A DNA stretch of 64,000 bases from Clusia tigrina. Taxonomy: Eukaryota > Arthropoda > Insecta > Diptera > Clusiidae. A model generated the notes under the pieces. The model was not told the origin of the DNA. It saw only the letters and a program-made list of their open reading frames with translations, and searched no databases. Below are positions 10,892 to 56,451 of this stretch, piece after piece. Made by a program: the position numbers and the translations under genes. The DNA is taken from assembly GCA_920105625.2 (NCBI GenBank), contig OV050032.1:204194758-204258757 (forward strand), read 5' to 3'. Position 1 is the stretch's first letter. Every line of letters begins with the position of its first letter.

Positions 10892-11240
10892 AACTATGCG
10901 CATAAACTTCACGAGAGAAAATTAACAAAAATGTCTTCCTGACCACGCGCATTAAGAAAAGAAAAGGATAATTAATATCGCGTATTTGTGTATAGCGTAA
11001 AAGTAAACTATGCGCATAAACTTCACGAGAGAAAATTAACAAAAATGTCTTCCTGACCACGCGCATTAAGAAAAGAAAAGGATAATTAATATCGCGTATT
11101 TGTGTATAGCGTAAAAGTAAACTATGCGCATAAACTTCACGAGAGAAAATTAACAAAAATGTCTTCCTGACCACGCGCATTAAGAAAAGAAAAGGATAAT
11201 TAACAAATTGTATGCAAGAATATCGCGTATTTGTGTAAAC
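10892..11240. repeat. 114-bp tandem repeat, about 2.9 copies, 3' flank of Wbp2
   Basis: The motif AACTATGCGCATAAACTTCA starts at 10892, 11006 and 11120, a strict 114-bp period with almost no differences between copies until about 11207. A shorter diverged piece precedes it near 10860. It begins only about 35 bp beyond the Wbp2 stop codon, so it may lie in the 3' UTR or terminator region of that gene. Confidence 0.9.
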
Positions 11241-24194: not shown

Positions 24195-26010
24195 TTCATT
24201 AATTAATAGTATATTGATAGCATACAAATTAAAACAATTTAAATTAAGAAGACAATAATATCAAATTTAAACAATACTCTTTGTTCATGGCTATCGCTGT
24301 GGAGTCGGTGAAAAAATGTTAAAGTTAAGATTTCCACTGCTAAAACGATTCATTACAGACACATATTCATAGTAAATATTGTTACGAAATTGCCCTCTTG
24401 ACAATTTACTCTGTTACAAAATTGCCCTCCTGACAATTTCTCTAACTCTCTGTACTCGGACTCGTACCACTGGATTGTGTAGTAATCAAACAATCGCTGG
24501 TTAAATTAAAATAATTAGCTTTATTTAATTATTGCTATTTACACATTTAATATTAGGCTTAAAGTTTACTTAGTTATGATTTGCACTTTATTTAACACTT
24601 TATTTAATAAGTAATTTCATCACTTTGCACAATTACAAATACTGCTGCTTTGATTATAATGCTAGATGCACACACTTTTACGGTATCTGATCTACTGTCT
24701 TCGACTTTGAACAGTCTTGTCGCTTTTATAGTTTTCGAATGGTTGGTGTAGAAACTTCCACGCTATTCTCGTATTATCTAGAAGCTTCTATCCTCTTCGA
24801 CGGAAGTCGAGAATATTCTTTTTGATATTACCGACAGATGGTTCTTGAATAAGCTATTATTCGAATAGTTCGCATCTTGACTCACAGGGGGCACTCATTC
24901 TCCAGATGGGATCCTAAAAGTATGCATCCATTTTCACTGAGTTATCACGTTTCAATATAATTTGAAATTTCTAAGAATTTCATTTCAAACAAAAATTTGT
25001 GAAAATTACAAAAAATTTTAAATTAATATTAAAATTAATGCACTTTACAAAATATATTAAAAAAAAAAAATTACTTTGTAAATATTAATACTACTATATG
25101 TAAGTTAATTGCATTTGAATAATTTCATTTACGTAGGTAGGCATGTATATTTTTATAACTAATTATTGGAATATTTTTAAACTTTAAATTGTAAATTAGT
25201 AAAAAAAAGAAAAAATTGGTGTATAAAATTATGAATAATAATATGTATTTATTTGATTTATTTCTTTATCCCCAAAAAAGCCACCATCGAATTGCACAGC
25301 AGAAGACTAAAAGTGATCTTTTGCGGAATGTTATGTACAGAATTATAGAAATTTTAGTTAATTCAGAATTGCACCAGCAAATAATTTGACTCTCTAATGT
25401 ACTCCAAATGCAACAAAACTGGTATGAGTGTTGTTGCGCGTTGGTGTATAGTTTTCGTGGTTTAGGGGGGGTTCGAGCCCCAGCAGAATGCTTTATCAGA
25501 TCTTCTTTTTTAATTAATAATCATTTTTATATATAGTAATAAAACTATTTTACTATTTTCCATAAATTAACTAGTATTATATCATTTTACTGGACCAAAA
25601 CTAAAGCAGAATTATTTCATGTCTGTTATAGAAGACGACTGGAAAGGGTGGAGTATTATGAAATTCAATCTTGACAAATCAGATACACACATCCATACAA
25701 AATAAATGTACAAATTTGTGTTTGGATCATTTTGGCAGGCAGCGAATTGTGCCATAAAAAGAATGAAATGAAAATAAAAGCGTCATTTCTCATATAGGAG
25801 TTTTTGTTGTATGATGTGCGGTGTGGCTTCTTTAAATATAAAAGCAGAATTAGAAGTCAATTTGTCATGAAATTTTGGATGTCAATATATTCAGTATGGA
25901 CAAATATCAGCACAATTTACTCTTTCGATCTTATATTTCATATTTTCGCGTTAGTAGCATGCGATCAAACATTTTTTGAGTCTATCAGAAAAAAGAATAA
26001 TTATGCGCAA
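24195..26010 (-). repeat. 1.2-kb dispersed repeat, right copy, split by a solo LTR
   Basis: This is the inverted partner of the repeat at about 3235-4490. It is interrupted at 24380-24954 by a solo LTR with a 4-bp target duplication, which dates the LTR insertion after the repeat. A tRNA-like B box (GGTTCGAGCCC) is visible near 25470. Confidence 0.7.
24380..24954 (-). mobile_element. Solo LTR (575 bp) of the Ty3/gypsy family at 45.4-51.6 kb
   Basis: It starts TGTTACGAAATTGCCC and ends ATCACGTTTCA, flanked by ATAT (24376-24379 and 24955-24958). The uninterrupted target is seen in the left repeat copy near 4300. The sequence closely matches the LTRs at 45415, 50956 and 51582. Orientation matches the full element on the minus strand. 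It has the TATA box but one half-site of the heat-shock element is mutated. Confidence 0.92.
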
Positions 26011-26829
<819 letters not shown>

Positions 26830-27149
26830 CAGAAACATATATTATAGAGACATCCAATTTCCCTTTTTAACATTTCTTCCAGCGAAATCGCAGGGAGGAA
26901 AGACTTGTTTCTGTAGTTTGCATACATGTTCCTTGGAACTTAATTCAACATTTTCGGTATACATTTATGATCAATTTTGTATACGCAACATTATAATTAT
27001 ATACATATGTATGTACGATTATGTATGCTTATAAAAAACCACTTGTGTGGTATGTATATTAACAATATATGTTATGGTATATTAATAATATAAATATGAA
27101 TATATGCGCATGCACGTGTCATTTGTAGGTGTGTTACAATTTTTAGTTG

Positions 27150-27213
<64 letters not shown>

Positions 27214-27256
27214 TTTGATTTTTTCAAATCTATATAAGAAATATATAATTTTAATA

Positions 27257-29694: not shown

Positions 29695-29824
29695 CATTTC
29701 TTCCAGCGAAATCGCAGGGAGGAAAGACTTGTTTCTGTAGTTTGTATACATGTTCCTTGGAACTTAATTCAACATTTTCGGTATACATTTATGATCAATT
29801 TTGTATACGCAACATTATAATTAT

Positions 29825-31359
29825 TGTAAGAACCAAAATCTTCTGTGGGAAATTTTGGCCCACACTACAAATGACAGAGTCGCCACGAAACTATATACAC
29901 ACACACATCACGATAAAATACCCGAACCGAAGCAACTACATTAGAAATTTAACGAAAAAACTACAAGCATTGTAACCAATTAGCGCGGCCGTGGTAGGAG
30001 CGCAGATCAGTAGCAGCATATTAGACCAGTTGGAATAATAACTAGGATTACAACAAAAGCAACCTCACGCACAGCCAACGATCTTGCCAATCAGCGCTAT
30101 GCTTGCAAAGAGCGAGGAAAAACACAGCGACGAGGAATACAACAAATACATGCCGGACAAGAGAAGGTGAGTGCACGAACTCAGCGGTGGAATTCGCCGA
30201 GTGCGCTCGCTCGGAAATCTTACACCAACAACACGAAGAAACGAGAGCGAAGCACAAGACGGACAACGACAGAACCACCACCACGCCAACGGCCGGCAAG
30301 TACAAAGCACAAGAGGGAAATGCTGGTTGGCAGTTAAATTAAATATTTAACAACAACAACACTATAGGATTCCGGACAGCGCTGCTGGCAGGCAACAATA
30401 CTGCAGGCTAACCAGGGACCGTTGGAGTGAGGTGGCTGACCGCCAGAAGTTGAAGGTGGCCCAAGGGCAAAAGACGGCAACACCAACAAGCCTGACTGCA
30501 ACAACAACAAGCCTGCCACAACAACAACAATCGACTACTGGCCAACGGAAGTAAAATCACACAACGGTGGCCTGCGAACAACAACATGTGTCAGCCGCTG
30601 CGACCTGGGACTATATAAACCACGTAGCCCAGGCAGTAGGTCTCTTCTTCGGACACCAGCATCCTGACTAGCAACAGCTCTACAAAGTACCATACGAACA
30701 TAAAAAGCTTAGCAAGAACCTCTGGTTTTTAATCGTTTTCTTGCTAAGTCATACACAGACAGAGACTACAGGGATTCAGTGAGAGCCTCTGGTTTTTAAT
30801 CGTTCTCCCACTGAATCACTGAGACACATACGCAACCGAGACTTAGGAAGCTTAGCAAGAACCTCTGGTTTTTAATCGTTTTCTTGCTAAGTCATATACA
30901 GACAGAGACTACAGGGATTCAGTGAGAGCCTCTGGTTTTTAATCGTTCTCCCACTGAATCACTGAGACACATACGCAACCGAGACTTAGGAAGCTTAGCA
31001 AGAACCTCTGGTTTTTAATCGTTTTCTTGCTAAGCCAGACACAAGCAGGGACTACAGGGATTCAGTGAGAGCCTCTGGTTTTTAATCGTTCTCCCACTGA
31101 ATCACAGAGACACACACTTACCGGGACGTAGAGACGTAAAAACAAGTACACATTGAATAAGTTATTTATACACTAAGCAAGTTGATTTGTATAGAGTTAA
31201 GGAAGTAGTATTGTTTTGAGCAAGGACTAACAAGAGTCCATAATCAATACACTAAATAAATACGTTGAAATTAATTTAACACACAGGATTTTATATTTTT
31301 CTGTATACGACCCCTGGAGCCGCTGAGTTATACCCCAGCTATAGAAAAGAGTCGTTACA
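29825..31359 (+). repeat. 5' LTR of element B
   Basis: It starts TGTAAGAACC and ends GAGTCGTTACA. U3 holds a TATA box (TATATAAA at 30612-30619), so transcription should start near 30635-30645. A poly(A) signal AATAAA lies at 31255-31260. The region between (R, roughly 600 nt) contains the six-hairpin array. Short ORFs in this LTR recur identically in the 3' LTR and are not genes. Confidence 0.92.
30708..31103 (+). repeat. Array of six stem-loops, two stem types, one invariant 19-nt loop (5' LTR)
   Basis: Type A hairpins are at 30708-30748, 30851-30891 and 30994-31034: an 11-bp perfect stem, CTTAGCAAGAA with TTCTTGCTAAG. Type B hairpins are at 30773-30817, 30916-30960 and 31059-31103: a 13-bp stem, GATTCAGTGAGAG with CTCCCACTGAATC, one A-C mismatch. 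All six enclose the same 19-nt loop, CCTCTGGTTTTTAATCGTT. A and B alternate, and the A-B pair repeats with a 143-bp period. The array lies downstream of the predicted transcription start, so it would be in the RNA. Confidence 0.93.
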
Positions 31360-31360
31360 G

Positions 31361-31379
31361 TGGCGCCCGAGCAGGGACT
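31361..31379 (+). promoter_or_regulatory. Primer-binding site of element B (tRNA-Lys-like)
   Basis: TGGCGCCCGAGCAGGGACT begins two bases after the LTR end. It fits priming of minus-strand cDNA by a lysine tRNA. Confidence 0.85.
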
Positions 31380-31579
31380 CTGAGTTAAAGAAAACTAAAT
31401 CAGCGCGTCAGACTTTGAAAAAGAAAAAGACTAAATCGCAAGGAAGCTCAGCTCGTGAGAGAATTTACCAGGGCAAAGAGAAAGCTACGTCTACGCAGTC
31501 ACGCATAATACAGCCGAATAAGCGCCAGCTTATAATACACACACAGATTGTCTTCATCGTCACCTAAGACTTTCACAGG

Positions 31580-33901
31580 ATGGTGAAAACAAGCTGGGTG
31601 TACTTGTTATGCAAGGATGAGCTGGTGATCTTTGCTGATGAATTCGGTGTAGAGGCTACAGGTACCGTGGATGAAGTCCGTAAACGTCTTTCCGACTTCT
31701 TCACTGAAACAGAGCTGACTCAGGATCAGAAATACCAATTGCAGAAGCTACAATCCAAGTACGTTAAGAGCACATCCCCAAGGCCGGCTGTGTCCATAGT
31801 TACCCGCGAAACGCTGGAAGTGGACAGGCCAGAGGCATACACAGGTGCAACACTAACGGCAGAGAACTCAGGGGTACGGAGAACACTACATCATCGCTCC
31901 GTGTCACCTGCAACAATGAATCAACAGCACAACGGGATTGTACAGTACGCCGTTGTGATTGACCAGGTGAGGAAGTGGTCCCTTAACTTTGACGGAGGGC
32001 GTGACCCGCTAGCGTTTATAGAGCGAGTCGAGGAATTGGCAGATGTGTACGAAATAAACAAAGATTTCCTTCCGCGTACTATGCCTGAACTCTTGAGAGA
32101 ACGAGCACTCATGTGGTTCAGAAACAACAATCGAGCGTGGCGGGATTGGCGTACATATAGGAGAGACTTTCTAAAATTCTTCTTGCCAGCACGATACATG
32201 GAGAAACTCGAAGACCAGATCCGCCAGCGTCACCAGAGACCCAGAGAAGGGTTCAAGCAGTTTGTAGTTGAATTGCAGAATCTAATGCGGCACTTGGACT
32301 ATTCCGAAGAACAGAAACTGGAGCGTATTTTCCAGAACAGCCTGCCAGAATACCAGCTATATGTGCGCCGCAGAGATTTCACATCGCTAGCAGAGCTGAT
32401 AGAAATGGCTGCAGACTTGGAGAGCATACGGAGAGAAGGCGAACAACTACCAGCGCCACCCATACAACGGCGAAGAGAGCAAGGTCCACCACGAGAGGTG
32501 AGAAACTGTCAGGTGACGGTAGAGAGCAGAGAGACACCCATAGAACCAAGAACAGCCTGCTGGCGTTGTGGCCAAAATGGTCATATAGCACGCATATGTC
32601 GCAACGCACAGATCCTGTTCTGTTGGGAGTGTGGTCAAAGGGATGTGAGGACTATAGAGTGCTGCAAACTAAGAGCACCAACCGATCGAGAGCTACCGAC
32701 GACAGAAACACAGCATGCCACAAAGGAGAGACAGCAGACTTCCCCATTGGAAAACTTATTGCACTGTGACGGACAACGAATCTGCGCCACCGTTTCGATT
32801 GGCACAGAAACTGTCACAGCAACACTGGACACAGGGGCAACTCACAGTTTTGTGAGCAGAGAGCTAGCACGAAAGCTACGCTCTTCCACCAGCAAATTTG
32901 GAAAATCCAAGACCAGAGCACGTATGGCAGACGGAAGCGCTAGGAGAGTCAGTGGGACATTGACGGCAACTGTAAGGCTTGGAGAGCAGACATGCGAGCA
33001 AGAGCTACTTATCATGCCTGATTCCATTAATGAGCTACTCCTTGGACTAGACCTCATGGCAAGCCTAGGAATGACAGTGAAGTGTGGTGAACAGGAGATC
33101 ACATTGGGACCTCAAAACAATTGCGTGCAACCCCGAGATATTGCAATGTGCACGACAATTCGTGTTGAGAATGCCACACAAATCCATTCAACGACTTCCA
33201 AGAGGCACGCCAGCGACAAAAATGCTCAGATAAAGAGACACAACAGAGAATACACAGAGAACCAACGAATTCGCAAACACACAACACCAAAAACAAAGAT
33301 GACTCATACGAACGAATTCACCTGCCACGGACTATGCCCAGCGAAATCCCACAGCGAATCCCACAAAAGCATATATAGAAGGACCACACATGAATCAGCA
33401 TATGGGCCTCGGAAAAAGGACGCAGGCGCCACCAAACGCGAGGAGCTGGCACAGCTAAGTCAAAATACAATCAGAGCAATCAGGGTATCTCCTAATCACT
33501 TCGCAAAGTCAGAACCAGTGCGAAACAACCAAAACATACCACGTAGACAACGTGGCAGATCAAGGGACAACCACCGTGCAATCAAGTGCACCAAACACAG
33601 CAGAAGCGATGACAAGAGGAATAAACGTGACTTCAATAGCCACCAACCCAACAGCATTAAACAACAGAGGCAGTCAACAGAGAAACATACGACAAACACA
33701 GGCACCTTATTCACATTCCAAAACATAGAAGAGCTACAAGGACCAAAAGGAGGTGATCTGCCACAGAACTTGGTAGCTGAAGTTTTGCAAATAGCCAAAG
33801 GGGCTCAGCAAAAACGGACACGAGGGCGAATACGATTTAGGCGAGACGCATACAGAGTGACCCTCAACCGTGACGCTGTCATCATTTTTCATCGTCGGTA
33901 A
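31580..33901 (+). CDS. Gag-protease protein of element B (773 aa)
   Basis: This single ORF fills the interior. Residues about 8-42 look like a SAP-type helix-turn-helix (DELVIFADEFGVEATGTVDE). A Gag capsid-like region follows (RDPLAFIERVEEL ... MPELLRERALMWFRNN). A CCHC zinc knuckle (CWRCGQNGHIARIC) lies near residue 326. A second knuckle-like motif (CWECGQRDVRTIEC, near 347) has Val in place of His. An aspartic protease with the DTGATHSFV active site starts near 417, with LLGLDLMASLG further on. The last ~250 residues are rich in Arg, Lys, Asn, Thr and His, with no reverse transcriptase, RNase H or integrase. The stop is 14 bp before the 3' LTR. Cleavage and packaging could act on the element's own RNA, but copying must depend on enzymes supplied in trans. 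Confidence 0.9.
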   Translation: MVKTSWVYLLCKDELVIFADEFGVEATGTVDEVRKRLSDFFTETELTQDQKYQLQKLQSKYVKSTSPRPAVSIVTRETLEVDRPEAYTGATLTAENSGVRRTLHHRSVSPATMNQQHNGIVQYAVVIDQVRKWSLNFDGGRDPLAFIERVEELADVYEINKDFLPRTMPELLRERALMWFRNNNRAWRDWRTYRRDFLKFFLPARYMEKLEDQIRQRHQRPREGFKQFVVELQNLMRHLDYSEEQKLERIFQNSLPEYQLYVRRRDFTSLAELIEMAADLESIRREGEQLPAPPIQRRREQGPPREVRNCQVTVESRETPIEPRTACWRCGQNGHIARICRNAQILFCWECGQRDVRTIECCKLRAPTDRELPTTETQHATKERQQTSPLENLLHCDGQRICATVSIGTETVTATLDTGATHSFVSRELARKLRSSTSKFGKSKTRARMADGSARRVSGTLTATVRLGEQTCEQELLIMPDSINELLLGLDLMASLGMTVKCGEQEITLGPQNNCVQPRDIAMCTTIRVENATQIHSTTSKRHASDKNAQIKRHNREYTENQRIRKHTTPKTKMTHTNEFTCHGLCPAKSHSESHKSIYRRTTHESAYGPRKKDAGATKREELAQLSQNTIRAIRVSPNHFAKSEPVRNNQNIPRRQRGRSRDNHRAIKCTKHSRSDDKRNKRDFNSHQPNSIKQQRQSTEKHTTNTGTLFTFQNIEELQGPKGGDLPQNLVAEVLQIAKGAQQKRTRGRIRFRRDAYRVTLNRDAVIIFHRR

Positions 33902-33914
33902 AGTGGGGAGGGCG

Positions 33915-35449
33915 TGTAAGAACCAAAATCTTCTGTGGGAAATTTTGGCCCACACTACAAATGACAGAGTCGCCACGAAACTATATACACACACACATCA
34001 CGATAAAATACCCGAACCGAAGCAACTACATTAGAAATTTAACGAAAAAACTACAAGCATTGTAACCAATTAGCGCGGCCGTGGTAGGAGCGCAGATCAG
34101 TAGCAGCATATTAGACCAGTTGGAATAATAACTAGGATTACAACAAAAGCAACCTCACGCACAGCCAACGATCTTGCCAATCAGCGCTATGCTTGCAAAG
34201 AGCGAGGAAAAACACAGCGACGAGGAATACAACAAATACATGCCGGACAAGAGAAGGTGAGTGCACGAACTCAGCGGTGGAATTCGCCGAGTGCGCTCGC
34301 TCGGAAATCTTACACCAACAACACGAAGAAACGAGAGCGAAGCACAAGACGGACAACGACAGAACCACCACCACGCCAACGGCCGGCAAGTACAAAGCAC
34401 AAGAGGGAAATGCTGGTTGGCAGTTAAATTAAATATTTAACAACAACAACACTATAGGATTCCGGACAGCGCTGCTGGCAGGCAACAATACTGCAGGCTA
34501 ACCAGGGACCGTTGGAGTGAGGTGGCTGACCGCCAGAAGTTGAAGGTGGCCCAAGGGCAAAAGACGGCAACACCAACAAGCCTGACTGCAACAACAACAA
34601 GCCTGCCACAACAACAACAATCGACTACTGGCCAACGGAAGTAAAATCACACAACGGTGGCCTGCGAACAACAACATGTGTCAGCCGCTGCGACCTGGGA
34701 CTATATAAACCACGTAGCCCAGGCAGTAGGTCTCTTCTTCGGACACCAGCATCCTGACTAGCAACAGCTCTACAAAGTACCATACGAACATAAAAAGCTT
34801 AGCAAGAACCTCTGGTTTTTAATCGTTTTCTTGCTAAGTCATACACAGACAGAGACTACAGGGATTCAGTGAGAGCCTCTGGTTTTTAATCGTTCTCCCA
34901 CTGAATCACTGAGACACATACGCAACCGAGACTTAGGAAGCTTAGCAAGAACCTCTGGTTTTTAATCGTTTTCTTGCTAAGTCATATACAGACAGAGACT
35001 ACAGGGATTCAGTGAGAGCCTCTGGTTTTTAATCGTTCTCCCACTGAATCACTGAGACACATACGCAACCGAGACTTAGGAAGCTTAGCAAGAACCTCTG
35101 GTTTTTAATCGTTTTCTTGCTAAGCCAGACACAAGCAGGGACTACAGGGATTCAGTGAGAGCCTCTGGTTTTTAATCGTTCTCCCACTGAATCACAGAGA
35201 CACACACTTACCGGGACGTAGAGACGTAAAAACAAGTACACATTGAATAAGTTATTTATACACTAAGCAAGTTGATTTGTATAGAGTTAAGGAAGTAGTA
35301 TTGTTTTGAGCAAGGACTAACAAGAGTCCATAATCAATACACTAAATAAATACGTTGAAATTAATTTAACACACAGGATTTTATATTTTTCTGTATACGA
35401 CCCCTGGAGCCGCTGAGTTATACCCCAGCTATAGAAAAGAGTCGTTACA
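33915..35449 (+). repeat. 3' LTR of element B
   Basis: It is the same length as the 5' LTR (1535 bp) and, as far as I can read, the same in sequence, including the six-hairpin array at 34798-35193. Apparent identity means very recent insertion. The purine-rich tract immediately upstream is the plus-strand primer site. Confidence 0.93.
34798..35193 (+). repeat. Array of six stem-loops (3' LTR copy)
   Basis: It repeats the array at 30708-31103, offset by 4090 bp. Because it is in the LTR's R region, the genomic RNA would carry it at both ends. Confidence 0.92.
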
Positions 35450-35453
35450 TTAT

Positions 35454-40216: not shown

Positions 40217-40289
40217 GATCCGCCAAGCAAAAAAAAAAAAAAAAATTTTTTTTACACAATTTGTTTAAATTAAATTATAAAGTTTTGCT

Positions 40290-42857
40290 ATGGACGCAGT
40301 TGACTACAACAAATATTCGGCCCTACAACTCAGAGAGTGGCTTAAGAGGTTGGGGTTACCTCCTGGCGGTACAAAGGCAGAAATGACAGTTAAGATAGAC
40401 AGTGTTTCATTAGAAAAACGTGGTGTCTGTCCAACTGTCAAAGAGAAGGATGACGGCGTCGTCCAACAAACTGTTGCAGAAAAAAGTACAGCCGAAAAAA
40501 TTACAGAAAACTACGCAGCACAAACCGCAGGCATACACGAATTTGCACAAAATTCCAACGACGACGGTCAGTCACAAAGTCAACGAGCAGTCGGCACCGA
40601 CACACAACAACAACATCAACATCAGTTTGTGCGTACATCGATGGAAGCAGCGACTGAAAAGCAGTTCGTCGAATTGAAGCAAATCATAGCGGAACTTCAA
40701 CAACAGTTAAAAGTACCACAGACGGCAAAGCAAATGAGTGAGAACACTGGTACAGAAAACTCTGAATTGCAAAAGAACGGTGAAAATATGTGCACCGAAA
40801 ACACAGAGACACAAATTACCGAAACAAATTTACAGACACAAAGTAACGAAGCAAATGTAAAGACACAAACACAGAAGATAGAAGCAAATGTGAAAGAAAA
40901 GGACGAATTGTTACACATCTCATTCTCGCTCGCAAAAGATTTGGTGGTAGAATTTGATGGCAACACATGCGCTCGTATATGGATAAAACAACTTAAAACC
41001 ATTGCAGAGACATGCAAGTTAAATGAAAATTTTCTTCGCTTGCTGTTAATAAGCAAATTAAGAGATAACGCACAAAAGTGGTTGTATGCAGACACAGATC
41101 GAATTAAAGAACCTACTGATTCGCTGTTGGAGCAGTTAATGTTAGCGTTTGGACAAAAAATCAACAAGATCGAAGCTAGACAAAAATTTGAATCTCGCAT
41201 CTGGCAAGTAGGCGAATACTTCGAAAAATATTTCGACGACAAAATGTCTCTTTCCCGTGACATCAACGTTGATCAGGATGAGCTGTTAGACTACGTCATT
41301 GAAGGCATCCCCGTGGAATATCTAAAGATACAGGCCCGTATTCAATGCTTCGCGAATCCGTCGCAGCTATTGCGTTCGTTTCGAAATGTGCAGATGAAGT
41401 CGTCAATGACGGGTGCAGATAAACGCGATCAGAAGCCTGCAACAAAAGACATCAGATGTTACAATTGTAACTCGATGGGTCACTACGCAGCTGGCTGCCG
41501 TAAGCAAAAACGCCAAACCGGGTCCTGTTTTGGGTGTGGAAGTATGGAACATTTGGTCTCGCAGTGCCCGGACAGGAAAAATGGAGGAAATAATTACGTA
41601 AGACATTTCAAGATTTTTGTAGGTGATGATCCTAATGTTCCCTTAATTTCAGCGTGCCTCATAGATTCCGGTAGCCCTATATCTTTTATGAAATCGTCTC
41701 TTTTAAATGAAGAAATCCAAGTGAAGTCTGATGAAAATTCTTTTTATTTTGGCTTAAATAAAAGCCCACTGAAAATTTATGGAAAGATTTTATGTTTTGT
41801 AATGAATAATAGAAATAAAAAAATTCATTTTAATTTGAAAATTGTTGCCGACGAATCTATGAGCTACGATGTAGTTTTGGGTAGAGACTTTATGAATGCA
41901 TGCAAATTAAAATTAAATATGGATTCTTTAAAAATTGTAACGCTAAAAGAAGTTAAAGAAAAACAAAAATATGCAGAATCAAATGATCGAAAATTAACGT
42001 ACAAGGTTATTAAAAATTTACAGAAAAAAGACAGTCAGTTGGAAAATCATACTGAAACAAATGAGTTAGATTCGGTCGTTGAAGAAATGTTACAAATTAA
42101 TTATGTCGATAATGTTGAACAAGAATATAATGTCGGTAAAAATGTTAATTTTGACACAAGAAGTAAATTTGTTAAAATGTTTGAACGAATATATAATAAG
42201 ACTGTCAGACCAAGCGAGCCGTTTGTTAAAAGCAAGATAAAATTATGTTTAGAAAACCCTGAGCCGTTTAATCGCCCTGCTAGACGATTGGCTGTTGAGG
42301 AACGCGAAAAACTGCAGAAACTTCTTGATGAGTATTTACAAAAAGGATTTATTAGACCAAGCGAATCAGAGTATGCGTCTCCAATAGTGTTAGTGAGAAA
42401 AAAGACAGGAGAACTCAGAATGTGTGTAGACTATAGAACCCTTAATAAAATGACTTTGAAAGACAATTACCCTCTACCGCACATAGACGATTTGTTAGAC
42501 AGGTTGGTGGATAAATGCGTGTTCTCAAAGTTAGATTTGAAGAATGGGTTTTTCCATGTTTTTGTTGACGAAAGTTCGGTTAAATATACATCTTTTGTCA
42601 CTCCACTAGGACAGTATGAATTTTTACGAATGCCCTTTGGATTAAAAAATGCACCTTCAGTGTTTCAAAGGTTCATAAACAAAATTTTTGCTGATTTGAT
42701 AAGAGAAAATAAAGTTATTGTGTATATGGACGATATAATGATCGCTACAAAAAATTATGAAGAACATCTGAAGATATTAGAAGAGGTCCTACACAGACTT
42801 GTTCAAAACAAGTTAGACCTAAGGTTAGACAAGTGTGATTTTGCAGAGCCAAATTAA
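40290..42857 (+). CDS. Element A Gag-protease-RT polyprotein, first part (855 aa)
   Basis: The N-terminus has a SAP-like motif (SALQLREWLKRLGLPPGGTK, about residues 10-30). A Gln/Thr/Glu-rich linker and capsid-like region follow. Then come two CCHC knuckles (CYNCNSMGHYAAGC near 390; CFGCGSMEHLVSQC near 412), an aspartic protease with DSG rather than DTG (LIDSGSPISFM, near 457), and reverse transcriptase with VDYRTLN and the catalytic YMDDI near 812. The frame ends abruptly inside the region after RT. The downstream frame 42835-44790 resumes there with YLGFL, so a small indel separates two halves of one Ty3/gypsy Pol. Gag and Pol are in the same frame up to the break. Confidence 0.9.
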   Translation: MDAVDYNKYSALQLREWLKRLGLPPGGTKAEMTVKIDSVSLEKRGVCPTVKEKDDGVVQQTVAEKSTAEKITENYAAQTAGIHEFAQNSNDDGQSQSQRAVGTDTQQQHQHQFVRTSMEAATEKQFVELKQIIAELQQQLKVPQTAKQMSENTGTENSELQKNGENMCTENTETQITETNLQTQSNEANVKTQTQKIEANVKEKDELLHISFSLAKDLVVEFDGNTCARIWIKQLKTIAETCKLNENFLRLLLISKLRDNAQKWLYADTDRIKEPTDSLLEQLMLAFGQKINKIEARQKFESRIWQVGEYFEKYFDDKMSLSRDINVDQDELLDYVIEGIPVEYLKIQARIQCFANPSQLLRSFRNVQMKSSMTGADKRDQKPATKDIRCYNCNSMGHYAAGCRKQKRQTGSCFGCGSMEHLVSQCPDRKNGGNNYVRHFKIFVGDDPNVPLISACLIDSGSPISFMKSSLLNEEIQVKSDENSFYFGLNKSPLKIYGKILCFVMNNRNKKIHFNLKIVADESMSYDVVLGRDFMNACKLKLNMDSLKIVTLKEVKEKQKYAESNDRKLTYKVIKNLQKKDSQLENHTETNELDSVVEEMLQINYVDNVEQEYNVGKNVNFDTRSKFVKMFERIYNKTVRPSEPFVKSKIKLCLENPEPFNRPARRLAVEEREKLQKLLDEYLQKGFIRPSESEYASPIVLVRKKTGELRMCVDYRTLNKMTLKDNYPLPHIDDLLDRLVDKCVFSKLDLKNGFFHVFVDESSVKYTSFVTPLGQYEFLRMPFGLKNAPSVFQRFINKIFADLIRENKVIVYMDDIMIATKNYEEHLKILEEVLHRLVQNKLDLRLDKCDFAEPN

Positions 42858-44790
42858 ATATTTAGGATTTTTGATAACAAGAGAAGGTGTTAGCGCGGAT
42901 GACAAAGGTATTAAAGCTGTTAAAAACTTTCCGACTCCAGACAATGTCCACAATGTACAGAGTTTTCTTGGTTTATGCTCGTATTTCCGACGGTTTATGA
43001 AAGACTTTTCGATAATAGCTAAACCCCTTTATGATTTGTTAAGAAAGGATAAAAAATTCTGTTTTGAAGAAAAAGAATTAGAATGTTTTTTATGTCTTAA
43101 AGATAAACTAATTCAGTCTCCAGTTCTGTCAATATATAACTATAAAGATGTTACAGAATTGCATTGCGATGCAAGTTCTCATGGATTTGGGGCAGTATTA
43201 ATGCAGAAAAAAGAAGACGGCAAGCTACACCCAGTGTTTTATTTTTCCAAACGGACGACAGACGTAGAGTCAAAATACCACAGCTTTGAACTGGAGACAT
43301 TAGCAATTATTTATGCGTTACGGAGATTTCGTATTTATCTCCAAGGGAAACGTTTTAAAATTGTTACCGACTGCAACTCCCTAACGCTCACTTTGAATAA
43401 AGTAGAGTTAAATCCAAGAATAGCCAGGTGGGCGTTAGAATTGCAGAATTATGATTATGAATTACAACATAGAGCAGGAAATCGCATGCAACACGTGGAT
43501 GCTTTGAGCAGATGCATGAATGTGATGGCTATAGGAACAAATACTTTTGAAGAAAATTTACTGATATGCCAAGCAAAAGATAGAAGGCTACAAAAAATTA
43601 GAGAAACTTTAACTACTTCAGAACACAAACTGTACGAGATGAGAAATGGAATATTGTACAGAAAAAGTAATGATAACAGGTTGTTGCTTTGTGTCCCAGA
43701 AGATATGGAAGATCACGTGATGTACAAATATCATAATGAAATGGGACATGTGGGAAGAGATAAAATGACAGACGCAATTTCAAAAAGTTATTGGTTTCCA
43801 AACATTAAAACGAAGTCAACGGTCCATATTGAAAACTGTCTTAAGTGCGTTGCTTTTTCTCCAAAACCAGGTAAAGAAGAAGGATTTCTACACAACATTC
43901 CTAAGGGAAATAAGCCATTTGATATTGTACACATAGACCACTATGGACCGATAGATGCAGGAAGAGTTAAGAAACACATATTCGTAGTAGTTGATGCTTT
44001 TACAAAATTCGTTAGGTTATACCCAACAAAGACTACAAATACAAAGGAAGTAGTTCAAGCCTTAAAAGAACATTTCAGATCATACAGCAAGCCAAAATGT
44101 ATTGTGTCGGATAGAGGTAGTTGTTTCACGTCAAGCGAATTTGAAGCGTTTATGAAAGACAACTACATCAAACACATTAAGATAGCGACAGGTTCTCCCC
44201 AGGCAAATGGTCAGGTAGAATGCATTAATAGAAGTATAGGACCTATGATAGCCAAATTAGTTGAACCTGAAAGAGGATTACACTGGGACGTACTTGTTGA
44301 AACAGTTGAATATTCGTTAAATAATACACAACATAGAAGTATAAAACAATTTCCAAGCAAAATGTTGTTTGGAATAGAACAAAAGGGTAAAGTATTAGAC
44401 GAATTTAAAGAAAAACTGATGGAACTTAATGAAAACGTAGAGGAAATAAATTTAGAAGAATTACGGAAAGAGGGAGAGCATAACCAAATCAAAGCTCAAA
44501 ATTATAATAAATCTTACGTTGATGGAAAACGCAGAGAACCGTACAAATACAAAGTAGGAGATTATGTAATGGTGAAAAATTTTGATTCTACGGTAGGGTT
44601 TTCTAGAAAACTTATACCCAAACACAAGGGCCCTTATGAGATTGCGCGAATTCTTAGAAATGATAGGTTTCTTTTAAAAGATGTAGAAGGGTTTCAAGTT
44701 TCTCGCGTTCCGTATCAGGGTGTCTGGAGTGTCCAGAACATTAGACAATGGATTAACAACAAACGAAAAGAGTCTAAAAAAAAATTGTAA
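42835..44790 (+). pseudogene. Element A Pol, second part (RNase H and integrase), out of frame
   Basis: This frame starts within the RT connection (YLGFLITREG) and runs through RNase H (LHCDASSHGFGAVLMQKK, FELETLAIIYALRRF, IVTDCNSLTL). Integrase follows, with an HHCC zinc module (HNEMGHVGRDK ... CLKC), catalytic D, D and E in VHIDHYGP, IVSDRGSCF and GQVECINRS, and a GPY/F-like C-terminal module (KHKGPYEIARIL). There is no env. It overlaps the preceding frame by 23 bp at the break near 42840. The rest of the frame is open, so the lesion looks young. A programmed frameshift at this place, between RT and RNase H, would be unusual. Confidence 0.85.
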
Positions 44791-44926
44791 ATCATAATAG
44801 AATTAATTTATGTTTAGACTAGATTAAGAATTAGAAGATTAAGAAAAACTGTAATGTATTTCTAAGTTATCGGTAAGTCTTCTTGTATACAAAGATCAGG
44901 GGATCTTGTCGTCAGGACGGCCGAGT

Positions 44927-45294
<368 letters not shown>

Positions 45295-45414
45295 GTAAAG
45301 ACTCTCTATAGCTGGGGTAGACTCAGCGGCTTCCAGGGGTCGTGTACAGAAAATTTATAGATTGAATTCCACCAGGGTTATTATAGTTTAAATTTCTTTA
45401 TTTATCTAAAATAT
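45295..45414 (-). repeat. Relict LTR related to element B, reverse orientation (left piece)
   Basis: The blocks CTATAGCTGGGGTAGACTCAG and CGGCTTCCAGGGGTCGTGTACAG resemble the reverse complement of the end of the element B LTR but are clearly diverged. It is interrupted at 45415 by element C. The remainder resumes at about 52158 (TTAGTTAGTCCTTACAATAT). Confidence 0.65.
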
Positions 45415-46001
45415 TGTTACGAAATTGCCCTCTTGACAATTTACTCTGTTACAAAATTGCCCTCCTGACAATTCCTCTAACTCTCTGTACTCGGACTCGT
45501 ACCACTGGATTGTGTAGTAATCAAACAATCGCTGGTTAAATTAAAATAATTAGCTTTATTTAATTATTGCTATTTACACATTTAATATTAGGCTTAAAGT
45601 TTACTTAGTTATTATTTGCACTTTATTTAACAAACCATTAGTCACTTTATTTACTAATGAATTTCACCACTTTGTAAATCACAAATACTGCTGCTTCGAT
45701 TAAAATGCCTGCTGTACACACTTTTACGATCTCTGATCTACTGTATTCCAGTTTGAACAGTCTTGTCGCTTTTATAGTTTTCGAATGGTTGGTGTAGAAA
45801 CTTCTACGCTATTCTCGTAGTTTCTAGAAGCTTCTATCCTTTTCGACAGAAGTCGAGAATATTCTTTTTGATATTACCGGCAGATGGTTCTTGAATAAAC
45901 TTTTATTCGAATAGTTTGCATCTTGACTCACAGGGGGCACTCATTCTCCAGATGGGATCCTAAAAGTATGCAATCCCTTTTCACTGGGCTATCACGTTTC
46001 A
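45415..46001 (-). repeat. 3' LTR of element C (587 bp)
   Basis: It contains the three-unit heat-shock element at 45822-45834 and the TATA box CTTTTATAG (on + strand) near 45770. The immediately adjacent purine tract marks the plus-strand primer. Confidence 0.9.
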
Positions 46002-46012
46002 CTGCCCTCCGC

Positions 46013-49000
46013 TTAAACTTGTTCGTCCCGAACAAGGATAGTACTGCAACCTTTATAAGGAGATAACCTCTCTAAATGAACGACTTTCATTTTGCTCCTG
46101 GCATTTCTCGCCAACTGGATGCGGTATACTACATCGTTGAGCCGCTTTATCACCTTATAAGGGCCTTCCCAGTGTGTTTGCAGTTTTGGCGATAATCCCT
46201 TTTTCCTTTGCGGATTATGAAGCATAACTAGCTGCCCTTCCTGAAATCCCTTGGAGTTTGCTCGTAGATCATATCTGGCTTTCATTTTATCACTCATCAG
46301 TTGTGTGCGCTTTCTGATGGTTCCATGAATTTCATTCAGCTGTCTTCGTTTGTCAGCTACATAACTGCTACATGAAACTTCCGTAGATGAGTAGGCACCG
46401 AATTTCAGATCTGCAGGCAATCTTATGTCACAACCGAAAATAGCCTTAGCTGGTGTTGTAGATGTTGTATCGTGAGTTGCCGATCGGTATGCCATTAAGA
46501 AGAGGGGTATGTGTTGGTCCCAATCTTTCTGGTTTCTGTCCACGACTTTTCTTAGGTGTTCCTCAAGCGTACGATTAAATCTTTCAACCATTCCATCGGA
46601 TTGTGGGTGCAAAGGGGTTGTACGAGTTTTGCGTATGCCCATCAATTCACTCATTTCCCTGAATATTGTTGACTCGAAATTTCTGCCTTGATCCGAGTGC
46701 AACTCGAGGGGAGCTCCGAATCTGCAGACCCAATTATTGATAAATGCATCTGCAACGGTCTTAGCTTCTTGATCGGGAATGGGGTACACTTCTGGCCATT
46801 TACTAAAATAGTCGATTACGACGAGAACATATTTGTTGCCGGAATCACTAATTGGAAACGGACCTGCTATGTCCATTGCAATACGCTCAAATGGCGCTCC
46901 CACGTTGTATAAATGCATCTTCCCCTGGCTGCGACGGCTCGGTCCCTTGGCAGCTGTACACTTTTCACAAGCACTAATCCAGTCAACCACCGATTGCTGG
47001 CAACCAACCCAATAAAATCGTGTTTTAATTTTCTCGACTGTTTTTGTTATTCCCAAATGTCCTCCGCTTGGCCCACTATGGTATTCCTTGAGAATTTCGC
47101 TTATTCTTGCCTTGGGTACCACAATCAAGTTCTTCGTGGTTTTTCCATCTTCGCTCTCCCACAGGCGGAATAGGCATCCATCTTGCAGCTTTAAGCTATT
47201 CCATTGAGCCCAATATGCTTTAGTTATGGGGCTTTCAGTCGAGATTTCGTTCCAATCAGGCCGTTTTCCTTCGCTCTTACTTGATACGATTTTTGCCAAA
47301 TCTGGGTCATTTCGTTGTTCTTCTTTTATCTTTTCCGCTGTCCATTCATCGTCTGGTAAAACAGCCATTAAGCGCACATCGACTACTCCTTCTTTCCCTT
47401 CAGCTTTAGAACAGTGCTTACATTCCATACTGCAAGGACGTCGTGATAGTGCATCAGCATTCCCGTGGTTTCCGCCTCTGCGATGTTCTATTGTGAAATC
47501 GTAGCTTTGGAGTCTCTCAATCCATCTCGCAACCTGACCTTCGGGATTTTTGAACTGTAATAGCCAGCGCAGAGCAGCGTGATCCGTTCTCAACAAGAAC
47601 TTTTGTCCATACAGGTACTTGTTAAAGTGCTTCACGCACTGCATAACCGCCAAAAGTTCTCTCCGTGTTACACAGTAATTTCGCTCTGGCTTTGATAAGA
47701 TCTTACTGAAGTAGGCTATTACTCTTTCATGTCCGTCAATAACTTGCGACAGGACACCTCCAATCCCGAATCCACTTGCATCTGTATCCAAAATAAATTT
47801 TTCGCCAGGTATTGGATACGCAAGGATCGGAGCTGTACACAATAGCTGTTTCAATCTGTTGAATGCCTTCTCCTGTTCGCTTTTCCACTCAAAAGGACAA
47901 TTTTTCCTCGTTAATGCATGCAGACTACCAGCCACGTCCGCAAAGCCTGGAACAAAGCGTCTGTAATAGGTGCAAAGACCCAAGAAGCTGCGTAGCTCAT
48001 GCAAACTAGTTGGTCTTGGCCACTCCCTTACTGAGTCTATCTTATCTGGATCTGTGTGTACTCCTTCAGGTGTGACTTTATGTCCAAGGTACTTGACTTC
48101 TTTCTTGAAGAACGAGCATTTCTTTGCGCTCAGCTTCAACCCTGAAGCTCCTAATCGCATCAATACTTCTTCCAAATTCTTCAAGTGGTCCTCGAAGTCC
48201 TTTCCCATAACGATGATGTCATCTAAGTACACCAGACACGTTTTCCAGTGGAGACCCTTTAGCACATGTTCCATTAAGCGTTCAAATGTAGCTGGAGCAT
48301 TACACAGTCCGAATTGCATCACCAAAAATTGCCATAGTCCATCACCGGCACTGAATGCTGTCTTTTCCTTGTCTTGTTCGTCTACTGCCACTTGCCAATA
48401 TCCGCTTTGTAAATCCAGCGTTGAGAACCAATTTGAACCAGAAAGTGTGTCCAACGTATCGTCGATTCGAGGTAATGGATAACTATCTTTGTTCGTTACC
48501 TCATTTAGTTTACGATAATCTACACAGAAACGTGTGGAGCCATCCTTCTTCTTGACTAATACCACTGGAGAACTCCAGGGGCTCGCTGATGGCTCTATGA
48601 CGTTGTTCTGATGCATTTCCTTCAGCAATACATTCACCTCTTCTCTCTTTGCCAGAGGTACTCTTCTTGACGCTTGACGAATGGGTTTGGCATCACCAGT
48701 GTTGATTGTGTGTTTCACCATCTTTGTTCTGCCTTCGTTTTTACCCTTTTCAGCAAATACTGACCAATGTCTTGCCAAAAGTTGGCTGGCAGTCTTCCTC
48801 TGCTCTGTGGATAAGTCTTTGCTCCATTCTTTCGTGAGATCGTCGAGTACCTTTTTATCAGCTGGTATTTTCATTTTTGTGTCTCGCGGCTGGCTTTCAC
48901 AGTTTACAATTGCCGAAATTGCCTGGCAATTTCCAATTATCTGTCCTTTCTCTATGGTTTTAGCAGAATTCGCAAGATTGACCACTCTTACTGGCACTAT

Positions 49001-49555
49001 TCTGTTCTGCTGCTCTTCTACGAGGGTTTTTCCAATGATGATGTCGTCCAGTGCAAATTTTTCATCAGTCTCCACAACCCACAACTTGTTCTTCTCCACA
49101 TCTCCGTCCATTTTGGCCCATATGACTGCCTCTGACTTTGCTGGGATTTTTGTCCGCTGCGATACAATGGCTTGTCGGATACCTCCATACTTATCCTCAC
49201 CAACGGATAACGGTATTTCGGTGTTCGCATACTTCAACGTTCGGCATTTCAAATCTAGGGTGAATCCATTCCGAATCATAAAATCCACACCTAAGATTAA
49301 TTCGTCCACAATATCCGCAACTACAAACTCGTGCTTCACTGTTGTGGTACCGATAGTGATTTTCCGTGTAACTTTTCCAAGTACCGGTGCATCATCTCCA
49401 GTTGCCGTACGCAAACTTATTCCCTGAAGCGGCTCGATTCCCCGAACGAGATCCCTTCTAATTATGGAATGTGATGCACCCGTATCCAATGTTACCACGA
49501 TTTTTCTTCCATTTACTACGCTGTCGACAGTTAGGCTGTTGATTTTCCGTGCCAT
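46013..49555 (-). CDS. Element C Pol polyprotein (1180 aa), apparently intact
   Basis: The order is aspartic protease (VVTLDTGASHSIIRR, residue ~20), reverse transcriptase (CVDYRKLNEV near 345, LVYLDDIIVMG near 440), RNase H (LDTDASGFGIGGVLSQ, TRRELLAVM, LLRTDHAALRWLL), and integrase. The integrase has an HHCC module (HSGPSGGHLGITKT ... CEKCTAAK near 825-860), catalytic D, D, E in AMDIAGPF (near 893), LHSDQGRNF (near 953) and DGMVERFNRTLEEH (near 988), and a GPY/F module (HWEGPYKVIKRL). It starts 68 bp after the gag stop and in another frame, so translation would need reinitiation, a subgenomic RNA or a readthrough mechanism. Length and motif set are complete for Ty3/gypsy. Confidence 0.93.
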   Translation of the reverse strand: MARKINSLTVDSVVNGRKIVVTLDTGASHSIIRRDLVRGIEPLQGISLRTATGDDAPVLGKVTRKITIGTTTVKHEFVVADIVDELILGVDFMIRNGFTLDLKCRTLKYANTEIPLSVGEDKYGGIRQAIVSQRTKIPAKSEAVIWAKMDGDVEKNKLWVVETDEKFALDDIIIGKTLVEEQQNRIVPVRVVNLANSAKTIEKGQIIGNCQAISAIVNCESQPRDTKMKIPADKKVLDDLTKEWSKDLSTEQRKTASQLLARHWSVFAEKGKNEGRTKMVKHTINTGDAKPIRQASRRVPLAKREEVNVLLKEMHQNNVIEPSASPWSSPVVLVKKKDGSTRFCVDYRKLNEVTNKDSYPLPRIDDTLDTLSGSNWFSTLDLQSGYWQVAVDEQDKEKTAFSAGDGLWQFLVMQFGLCNAPATFERLMEHVLKGLHWKTCLVYLDDIIVMGKDFEDHLKNLEEVLMRLGASGLKLSAKKCSFFKKEVKYLGHKVTPEGVHTDPDKIDSVREWPRPTSLHELRSFLGLCTYYRRFVPGFADVAGSLHALTRKNCPFEWKSEQEKAFNRLKQLLCTAPILAYPIPGEKFILDTDASGFGIGGVLSQVIDGHERVIAYFSKILSKPERNYCVTRRELLAVMQCVKHFNKYLYGQKFLLRTDHAALRWLLQFKNPEGQVARWIERLQSYDFTIEHRRGGNHGNADALSRRPCSMECKHCSKAEGKEGVVDVRLMAVLPDDEWTAEKIKEEQRNDPDLAKIVSSKSEGKRPDWNEISTESPITKAYWAQWNSLKLQDGCLFRLWESEDGKTTKNLIVVPKARISEILKEYHSGPSGGHLGITKTVEKIKTRFYWVGCQQSVVDWISACEKCTAAKGPSRRSQGKMHLYNVGAPFERIAMDIAGPFPISDSGNKYVLVVIDYFSKWPEVYPIPDQEAKTVADAFINNWVCRFGAPLELHSDQGRNFESTIFREMSELMGIRKTRTTPLHPQSDGMVERFNRTLEEHLRKVVDRNQKDWDQHIPLFLMAYRSATHDTTSTTPAKAIFGCDIRLPADLKFGAYSSTEVSCSSYVADKRRQLNEIHGTIRKRTQLMSDKMKARYDLRANSKGFQEGQLVMLHNPQRKKGLSPKLQTHWEGPYKVIKRLNDVVYRIQLARNARSKMKVVHLERLSPYKGCSTILVRDEQV

Positions 49556-49623
49556 CTGAGAAACGAAGATTCTGGGGCTACATGTTGTGGGAGTCAGATC
49601 AAGCCCCTCGAGACTGACTCCAT

Positions 49624-50916
49624 CTAGTTTGTCGACGACTTTTCATCATTTTCTGATTCCCTATTTTGGAATCTGACTTGCTTTGGAGGTCTTACCGGTG
49701 AGCGTGATCTAGAACGTTTCCGTCTCGATTGGCAATTACGGGCCATGTGTCCGACCTCTCCGCAGGTGAAGCATTTGCCCGTGAAACTTTGGCCGCTTTC
49801 GACTTGTACCTGACGGGCTCTGTATACTGGCTGGCACACCAAGGCTGCTGTCTCTGAAGTTAAAGCGCTAGCTACTGTCTCCATATATGTAGCTTTCGGA
49901 TTAGTTATTGCAGAACGCTTTATCTCCGCATCGCGAATGCCATATACGAAGGTGTCCATCATACACCTCTCAGTGATCTCTCCTGGGTAGGCAAGATGAG
50001 CCAAACGCTCCACTTCCGCCGCAAACTGTTGAAGAGACTCACCACTCTTTTGTACACGTGCTCGTAGCTCTACTTGGTACATCTGCTTCCGGTGTTCACT
50101 ACCATACTTGCGCTGAACGGCATTCATCAAGCTTTCATAGCAGTCTCGCTCACTTTCTGAGATAGTTTGAAGCACATCTGCGGCAGCACCTTTCAATGAG
50201 ACGGTTAATGCAGCCACTTTTTCGCGAGCACTCCAACCATTTGTGCTAGCGGTAGTCTCAAACTGCATTCTGAACACGCTAAATGTCGTGGTTCCATCAT
50301 AGGTAGGAGGCTTCAGTTTTATTGAGGATAAAGCTGGCTCAGGCAATGCACCTTCCTGTAGTAGGTGAATTCTTTGCTCTAATTCGTTCTGCTTTTGCTC
50401 GTTCGCAATTAATTTTTGTTCTACAGATTTTTCGAACGATTCCTGCCGTGTCTCAATTTCACAAACCTTCCTGTCTACCATCTCGGACATTTCTTTCATC
50501 TGCTGTGAGTTTTGTTCCGCTAGTAGAGCAAGTCGTATTTCACTCTGCTGTAACTGTTCTTTAACATCCTCTCTGACAGCTTGAGCATTTTGTTGTAATC
50601 GCAACTGCATCTTCTCATCGGCTGCTTGAGAATTTTGTTGTAACTGCTGCTGCATATCCTGTTTAAAGGATTGGATTATCCCGATAAGTGCGCTCATGTC
50701 AAAGTTACCCGTGTTAGGTTCTTGTGGTGTTTCTTCGTGGCGAGATGTCGTTGGCTCTTCACACTGGAATTCATGCTCATCGACGTCTATACCCTGCTCC
50801 TCTAAAGCGCTTCTTAATCGCACCTGCAGCTCCGCTTTAAGCCCTTGTGTTTGTAAATTTAAGCGCTCAAGCTCCTTCTTGAGCTGCTCCAATCTCAGTT
50901 TTTCAAATTTAACCAT
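49624..50916 (-). CDS. Element C Gag (430 aa)
   Basis: The N-terminus has a SAP-like DNA-binding motif (LRLEQLKKELERLNLQTQGL, residues about 5-25). Next are a long Gln-rich coiled-coil region, the capsid-like domain (PPTYDGTTTFSVFRMQFE ... MNAVQRKYGSEHRKQ) and one CCHC knuckle (CFTCGEVGHMARNC), followed by an Arg/Ser-rich tail. It begins 40 bp inside the 5' LTR border. The coiled coil before the capsid is longer than in many gypsy Gags. Confidence 0.92.
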   Translation of the reverse strand: MVKFEKLRLEQLKKELERLNLQTQGLKAELQVRLRSALEEQGIDVDEHEFQCEEPTTSRHEETPQEPNTGNFDMSALIGIIQSFKQDMQQQLQQNSQAADEKMQLRLQQNAQAVREDVKEQLQQSEIRLALLAEQNSQQMKEMSEMVDRKVCEIETRQESFEKSVEQKLIANEQKQNELEQRIHLLQEGALPEPALSSIKLKPPTYDGTTTFSVFRMQFETTASTNGWSAREKVAALTVSLKGAAADVLQTISESERDCYESLMNAVQRKYGSEHRKQMYQVELRARVQKSGESLQQFAAEVERLAHLAYPGEITERCMMDTFVYGIRDAEIKRSAITNPKATYMETVASALTSETAALVCQPVYRARQVQVESGQSFTGKCFTCGEVGHMARNCQSRRKRSRSRSPVRPPKQVRFQNRESENDEKSSTN

Positions 50917-50955
50917 TGTTTATCACAGTTACACAATCCCACTTCCGACACCAAT

Positions 50956-51575
50956 TGTTACGAAATTGCCCTCTTGACAATTTACTCTGTTACAAAATTG
51001 CCCTCCTGACAATTCCTCTAACTCTCTGTACTCGGACTCGTACCGCTGGATTGTGTAGTAATCAAACAATCGCTGGTTAAATTAAAATAATTAGCTTTAT
51101 TTAATTATTGCTATTTACACATTTAATATTAGGCTTAAAGTTTACTTAGTTATTACTTGCACTTTATTTCACAAACCATTAGTCACTTTATTTAACAAGT
51201 AATTTCATCACTTTATTTAATAATGAATTTCATCACTTTGCAAAATTACAAATACTGCCAATACTGCTGCTTCGATTAAAATGCCTGGTACACACTTTTA
51301 CGATCTCTGATCTACTGCCTTCCACTTTGAACAGTCTTGTCGCTTTTATAGTTTTCGAATGGTTGGAGTCGAAAATTCTACGCTATTCTCGTATTTTCTA
51401 GAAGCTTCTATCCACTTCGACAGAAGTCGAGAATATTCTTTTTGATATTACCGACGGATGGTTCTTGAATAAGCTTTTATTCGAATAGTTCGCATCTTGA
51501 CTCACAGGGGGCACTCATTCTCCAGATGGGATCCTAAAAGTATGCAATCCCTTTTCACTGAGCTATCACGTTTCA
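50956..51575 (-). repeat. 5' LTR of element C (620 bp)
   Basis: It reads from 51575 leftward. It carries TTCTAGAAGCTTC (51396-51408; a heat-shock element on either strand) and a TATA box at 51343-51350. It is longer than the other LTR copies because of extra ACTTTATTTAAYAA-type repeats near 51180-51245. Confidence 0.92.
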
Positions 51576-56127: not shown

Positions 56128-56451
56128 CTTAGTGCTTAGAAGTAATGGAAGAAATTAAATGTTCACAGAGGTGTGAAGTTTATAAATAAAATTTATATAG
56201 AATATTATGTACAATGAGTATAAAATATATATACGAAAATATTTATATGTAATTTATTGGGAAATTTACATTAGTTATCAATATGTGGTTGTGATAATGT
56301 GTTTTCTACAATTGAGCCCTGAGAGCTACTCGTTACCTTTGAATTTAAAATTGATTGTTTTAGTAATGGGAGAGAATATGCGGAATGTAGAGTTTTATTT
56401 AGAGGAGTAGTATTAGATATTGTTGTGTGTGTGTTTTTGTTGTTGTCTGTA

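Follow-up and report, generated by a model that had tools for sequence, protein, structure and literature searches.

The question raised by this locus is what maintains six RNA hairpins that carry one and the same loop in each long terminal repeat (LTR) of a retrotransposon of the fly Clusia tigrina. The element lies at 29825-35449 of the window, by which we mean the whole 64,000-nt stretch of DNA analysed (contig OV050032.1, positions 204,194,758 to 204,258,757 of the forward strand) and to which all coordinates refer. An earlier note on this DNA had described hairpins of two types, A and B, and had proposed that both their pairing and their loop are under selection. The best overall explanation that we can offer, held tentatively and at somewhat less than an even chance, is that these are R-region hairpins under selection as a docking array in a young, non-autonomous element of Ty3/gypsy type.

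The architecture was described correctly. Three A and three B hairpins alternate in each LTR, the two LTRs show 0 differences across 1535 bp, and all 12 hairpins were found. The 19-nt loop CCTCTGGTTTTTAATCGTT is identical in the six hairpins of each LTR; with 6 copies in either LTR, the window has exactly 12, where 0.03 occurrences would be expected at up to 3 mismatches. As a 143-bp unit is repeated 2.9 times, with units that match each other at 97%, the six hairpins amount to one A+B pair present in three tandem copies; within one unit, the A and B loops are 67 nt apart. The stem sizes given at first (11 perfect pairs in A, 13 positions with one mismatch in B) also hold, the mismatch being A.C, except that A gains a twelfth pair, G.U in A1 and A2 and G-C in A3.

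Folding agrees with these stems. The isolated A hairpin folds at -15.6 kcal/mol, lower than 1000/1000 mononucleotide shuffles, and the isolated B hairpin at -14.9 kcal/mol, lower than 999/1000. In both isolated hairpins an inner helix UGGUU/AAUCG is predicted inside the loop, leaving the UUU of the tip unpaired with a probability of 0.95-1.00. When pairing is limited to a span of 150 nt, the local stems keep a mean probability of 0.73-0.97 (means over the 11 loop-near positions, the B mismatch being counted as zero). A covariance model of the hairpins recovers the 12 hairpins and their mirror images on the opposite strand; run with filters off on 29825-33914, it gave another five matches, all weak (E 0.46 to 7.3), which we took as chance. 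Rfam at its gathering threshold has 0 matches in the window, and ARAGORN reports no tRNA-type match here. The exact loop was found 0 times in the viral contigs searched and once in genome contigs, in a Tenericutes metagenome-assembled genome, a match that we also took as chance.

The two stem types had been regarded as unrelated, and on this point our results say otherwise. Anchored on the loop, the A and B stems align without gaps over 13 positions. The left arms keep the purine/pyrimidine class at 13/13 positions, which only 544 of 400000 shuffled B arms equal, and the right arms agree at 13/13 as well, an agreement that is not independent of the left arm. All differences between the A and B stems are transitions (7/7 in the left arm, 6/6 in the right arm), against 10/18 in the spacers (one-sided Fisher 0.04 for the left arm). 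Among the 12 pairs counted, 6 are changed on both sides, 5 are invariant and 1 is broken in B, where it reads A.C. Pair 12 takes three states, being A-U in B besides the G.U and G-C of the A hairpins. The covariation score reaches 0.667, against a shuffled mean of 0.351, and was attained by 3/500 shuffles; with slid partners it is at most 0.222. Moreover, a good alignment is obtained between the 44 nt to the left of A2 and those to the left of B2, with 4/2000 shuffles as good. From the three different hairpin sequences that this one element offers we conclude that A and B are probably old duplicates with homologous stems.

The idea of selection had been argued from two unrelated stems sharing a loop. 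That argument is wrong, as the stems look homologous; the idea itself stands on other ground, namely the compensated A/B pairs and the low variability of the hairpins. Among the three tandem units 1/88 hairpin columns vary, compared with 18/55 spacer columns (Fisher 6e-8), and the difference persists without the last spacer, which is possibly non-homologous (1/88 vs 5/25 columns, p 0.002). The sole hairpin column that varies is pair 12, with its G.U and G-C, and the loop is identical in every copy, whereas stems and spacers have diverged. Together, the compensated pairs and the lower variability of the hairpins than of the spacers support selection acting on pairing as well as on the loop.

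The main non-functional rival explains the same pairs without any role for the RNA. Template switching, in DNA replication or in reverse transcription, would recopy one arm from the other and retain the loop, and slippage or recombination in R would amplify the array. In the passages of PMC8794818 at hand, such events can bring several compensatory changes at once and keep the loop sequence; the close match of the tandem units fits this, as do the G.U and A.C imperfections, which affect one pair each among the 12. Template switching does not, however, shield a loop from point mutation while the spacers change, as the column counts above require. Stem differences made of transitions only, where the spacers are mixed, are those expected from stepwise change through a tolerated mismatch, and all three steps are present at pair 12. 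We therefore regard template switching as unlikely.

Several results weigh against the proposed docking array and have to be set beside the evidence given so far. One of five pair measures, the number of further pair types, is 7 against 6.3 in shuffles and is reached by 315/500 of them. In each of the three B copies one internal pair is A.C, without compensation, and the outermost position 13, which pairs in B (G-C) and not in A (A.C), was excluded from the counted structure. Read on the opposite strand, the A.C of B would become G.U and the G.U of A would become C.A; the pairs therefore favour neither strand. The covariation comes from a single element with only three distinct hairpin sequences and essentially one A/B divergence, and the identity of the arms by itself is not significant (181-656/2000 shuffles in six comparisons). 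Five of the six A/B flank alignments are weaker than the best one, with scores of 8-11 that 41-167 of 2000 shuffles equal (167 and 96 for the other two left flanks; 41, 64 and 52 for the right flanks). In unconstrained folding of the R region the local stems have a mean probability of only 0.43-0.64, the competing pairings being those of A arms with other A arms and of B with B. The z score of the 473-nt region fold is only -2.3, though 0/100 shuffles fold as well. Lone perfect hairpins (at least 10 bp, loop of 7-25 nt) are not rare either, as the 64 kb hold six others, two of them overlapping, even when simple-sequence arms are left out. Finally, retroviral packaging signals often lie 3' of the primer binding site (PBS).

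The placement of the array in R, also part of the earlier note, is supported by the positions of the TATA box and the AATAAA signal and by an ATG-free stretch up to the start of gag. The TATA box is the single TATAWA match in 30001-31359, and a single additional A[AT]TAAA match (30338) is upstream of it. As the array sits between the TATA box at 30612 and the AATAAA at 31255, it is probably within R and hence at both ends of the RNA, whose ends are estimated from these motifs. The run free of ATG extends from 30586, which is 26 nt upstream of the TATA box, to the gag ATG at 31580; it is the longest on either strand of the 64 kb, and the second-longest (780) is the same run repeated at the 3' LTR. 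For comparison, U3 contains 5 ATGs over 817 nt, and 11 are present in the antisense of the leader. No mononucleotide shuffle of the leader lacks ATG (0/5000), and dinucleotide shuffles rarely do (5/2000 for the full leader, 3/2000 for the non-redundant leader, 17/2000 for the part after the array); a single array unit gives 736/2000 and is uninformative alone. The leader thus appears to be kept clear of upstream ATGs, as scanning ribosomes require; a transcript start 3' of the array is therefore unlikely. The hairpins of the 5' LTR would probably fall within the scanned leader, those of the 3' LTR within the 3' untranslated region (UTR).

The element that carries the array has the paired TG...CA LTRs and the short target-site duplication of Ty3/gypsy LTR retrotransposons, together with Gag and protease, and lacks recognizable reverse transcriptase (RT) and integrase. 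Its single long open reading frame (ORF) matches PF03732 (Gag, 7.3e-10), PF13975 (8.4e-13) and zf-CCHC (1e-4). No RT or integrase domain was found in three pieces of this ORF nor in two other internal frames, and the internal region measures 2555 bp only; therefore, this copy is non-autonomous. It is also apparently young. An element-free paralogous target site is present at 26870-27222, with identities of 99% and 91% to the two flanks of the element. The PBS is apparently of tRNA-Lys type, with one base differing from the complement of that tRNA. The relatives of the Gag are 18 proteins, of which the named ones come from Rhagoletis, Bactrocera, Glossina, Teleopsis and Drosophila, a range that by itself would point to a higher fly as the probable host, and the nearest PDB structures to the capsid domain are the capsid domains of Drosophila Arc2 and Arc1. 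Searches for Gag relatives in viral contigs (94 and 90 candidate stretches) and in genome contigs (30 candidate stretches) confirmed none. The last 176 codons of the ORF (33371-33901) matched no Pfam family, and no homologous protein was found for residues 560-773; this C-terminal end is possibly a remnant or a new region.

With these elements, the history and role of the hairpins can be proposed as follows. One ancestral half-unit of ~70 nt would have been duplicated to A+B and then amplified as the 143-bp unit, while selection would have kept every stem paired and the 19-nt loop unaltered. Stems that covary around an unchanged loop usually indicate a protein that recognizes a loop on its stem. 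The six copies suggest multivalency, and with A and B arms alternating, neighbours would mispair less. In the RNA of the element, a trans-acting RNA-binding protein would then dock on the hairpins as on a multivalent array, and such protein docking seems to us rather probable. The likeliest ligand would be the element's own Gag, which would choose the element RNA for its particles via the array. Gag is the first candidate because it has a CCHC knuckle, because Drosophila Arc1 capsids package dArc1 mRNA (as stated in an excerpt of PMC13232152) and because Ty3 has cis-acting sequences at both RNA ends, its packaging having needed UTR or POL sequences that were imprecisely mapped (from the available part of PMC4974528). 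The identification of the ligand with Gag is nonetheless a doubtful one. Gag bound to the 5' array in the scanned leader could in addition shift the RNA from translation to packaging, a switch that we consider quite improbable. Dimerization through the loop finds no support, because the energy of the loop-loop duplex is no better than that of shuffled loops (200/500 as good). The best complement of the loop elsewhere in the element RNA has 7 perfect pairs, or 11 allowing G.U, figures given without a chance control.

Lysyl-tRNA synthetase (LysRS) and CPEB/Orb are live rivals to Gag as ligands of the array. According to the first proposal, the loops would imitate the anticodon loop of tRNA-Lys(UUU) and recruit LysRS and the primer tRNA, in the way of human immunodeficiency virus type 1 (HIV-1), whose tRNA-like element (TLE) is bound by LysRS through a U-rich anticodon-like loop (available text of PMC11181671). 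The loop and the anticodon arm of tRNA-Lys(UUU) appear to have UUUUAAUC in common, in the anticodon register, the predicted hairpin exposes the UUU, and the PBS is tRNA-Lys-like. About 1% of the sampled 19-mers of the window match the arm as well (213 and 201 of 21328 per strand), and so do 77/1517 of the 19-mers of the LTR, array included, and 1.4% of shuffled loops. The anticodon-like stem consists of three weak pairs only, the triloop form being preferred. In addition, the six copies lie in R, 258-653 nt upstream of the PBS, whereas the TLE of HIV-1 adjoins the PBS. A control pattern for tRNA-Lys had 0 matches in viral contigs. We consider tRNA mimicry improbable. Its fuller version, in which six anticodon-loop mimics gather LysRS and primer tRNA at both RNA ends and alternating non-matching stems prevent misfolding between neighbours, is very unlikely; if true, it would be a multiplied, independent counterpart of the HIV-1 TLE in an insect retrotransposon.

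In the second proposal the host protein CPEB (Orb/Orb2) would dock on the U-rich loop UUUUUAAU presented by the stem and control poly(A) length and translation, in the germline or in neurons. The loop contains UUUUAAU, similar to a cytoplasmic polyadenylation element (CPE), and the copies in the 3' UTR are upstream of the AATAAA. A CPE has UUUUAAU about 100 nt upstream of AAUAAA, and here the nearest copy, in the last loop, ends 165 nt upstream, beyond the usual distance; the remainder of the 19-nt loop would also be left unexplained. The sections available of a review mention U-rich loop motifs for CPEB3-4 (PMC7425470). On balance, CPEB docking too is improbable.

An element acting as DNA, with the repeats serving as transcription-factor or enhancer sites 3' of the promoter and the palindromes being incidental, would suit repeats in R immediately 3' of the TATA box, but a 19-bp binding site has no need of compensated A/B stem changes, and we find this reading hard to credit. 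Other candidates were rejected. The loop contains CUGGU, but its U/U flanks form no standard pair, and the Smaug/ZCCHC14 target is a CNGGN loop closed by a base pair; a poly(A)-binding triple helix of the ENE (element for nuclear expression) type has two facing U-runs, and each hairpin has just one U5 run; and stems of 11-13 bp are too short for Dicer. A scan of 30500-30800 for bacterial promoters and terminators, of a type not relevant to fly DNA, gave no match.

Hairpins in R are known from retroviruses. TAR and the Rex response region of human T-cell leukaemia and bovine leukaemia viruses are, like the array, structured RNA in R and thus present at both RNA ends; they are single compound structures, whereas the array is tandem, with diverged stems and one loop. 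With the Ty1, Ty3 and Drosophila Arc systems the element has in common a Gag-type protein whose relatives package their own RNA; no hairpin array is described in the portions of that literature available to us. Within Ty3/gypsy, long LTRs are also found in the Osvaldo/Isis lineage, which has a tRNA-Lys PBS; a PBS for tRNA-Lys3 characterizes the Osvaldo/Ulysses lineage. The 4-bp target-site duplication is Isis-like as far as the accessible text of PMC3630058 goes; unlike the Osvaldo/Isis lineage, the present copy shows no RT or integrase. Helenus/Ajax and Cassandra are likewise non-autonomous and also carry RNA-like sequence in their LTRs, derived there from tRNA or 5S rRNA (excerpt of PMC10886601), whereas ARAGORN and Rfam find nothing here. 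In the accessible portions of the open-licence papers that we searched, no such hairpin array was recognised. The features of the element are collected in the table below.

Table. Features of the element and of its hairpin array, in window coordinates.
Feature	Position	Strand	Remark
5' LTR	29825..31359	+	1535 bp, TG...CA ends
3' LTR	33915..35449	+	identical copy of the 5' LTR
Target-site duplication TTAT	29821..29824; second copy 35450-35453	+	
R region within the 5' LTR	~30642-31285	+	start and cleavage sites estimated from TATA/AATAAA
TATA box TATATAAA	30612..30619	+	motif only
Predicted 5' leader, 938 nt, no ATG	30642..31579	+	start estimated from the TATA box
Tandem array, 143-bp unit x 2.9	30705..31114; 3' LTR copy 34795-35204	+	
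Hairpin A1	30708..30748	+	loop 30719-30737
Hairpin B1	30773..30817	+	loop 30786-30804
Hairpin A2	30851..30891	+	loop 30862-30880
Hairpin B2	30916..30960	+	loop 30929-30947
Hairpin A3	30994..31034	+	loop 31005-31023; pair 12 G-C instead of G.U
Hairpin B3	31059..31103	+	loop 31072-31090
Same six hairpins, 3' LTR copy	34796..35193	+	
AATAAA polyadenylation signal	31255..31260	+	motif only
PBS TGGCGCCCGAGCAGGGAC, tRNA-Lys-like	31361..31378	+	read from sequence
Single long ORF, 773 codons: Gag, CCHC knuckle, aspartyl protease	31580..33901	+	
Polypurine-tract-like run directly 5' of the 3' LTR	33902..33912	+	sequence

Other features were observed in the window. Two other elements of Ty3/gypsy type, one per strand, were recognized by eye from their ORFs at 40281-51546. 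They are accompanied by LTR-like repeats (45413-45972, 50954-51546), of which another copy lies at 24378-24926. Minus-strand ORFs at 52435-57150 resemble a non-LTR retrotransposon, again judged by eye from the translation. A 114-bp tandem repeat is present at 10892-11203 (2.7 copies, 100% match), and the window also holds a host exon (RRM, ENOX-like).

Little is known of how the Ty3/gypsy elements of insects select their RNA, or of how gag-protease elements that lack RT are mobilized. A compact array with internally documented covariation offers a small RNA handle, open to direct testing, in the search for the partner that would bind it. Moreover, the Gag of this element is near the Drosophila Arc capsid family, whose choice of RNA is also of interest.
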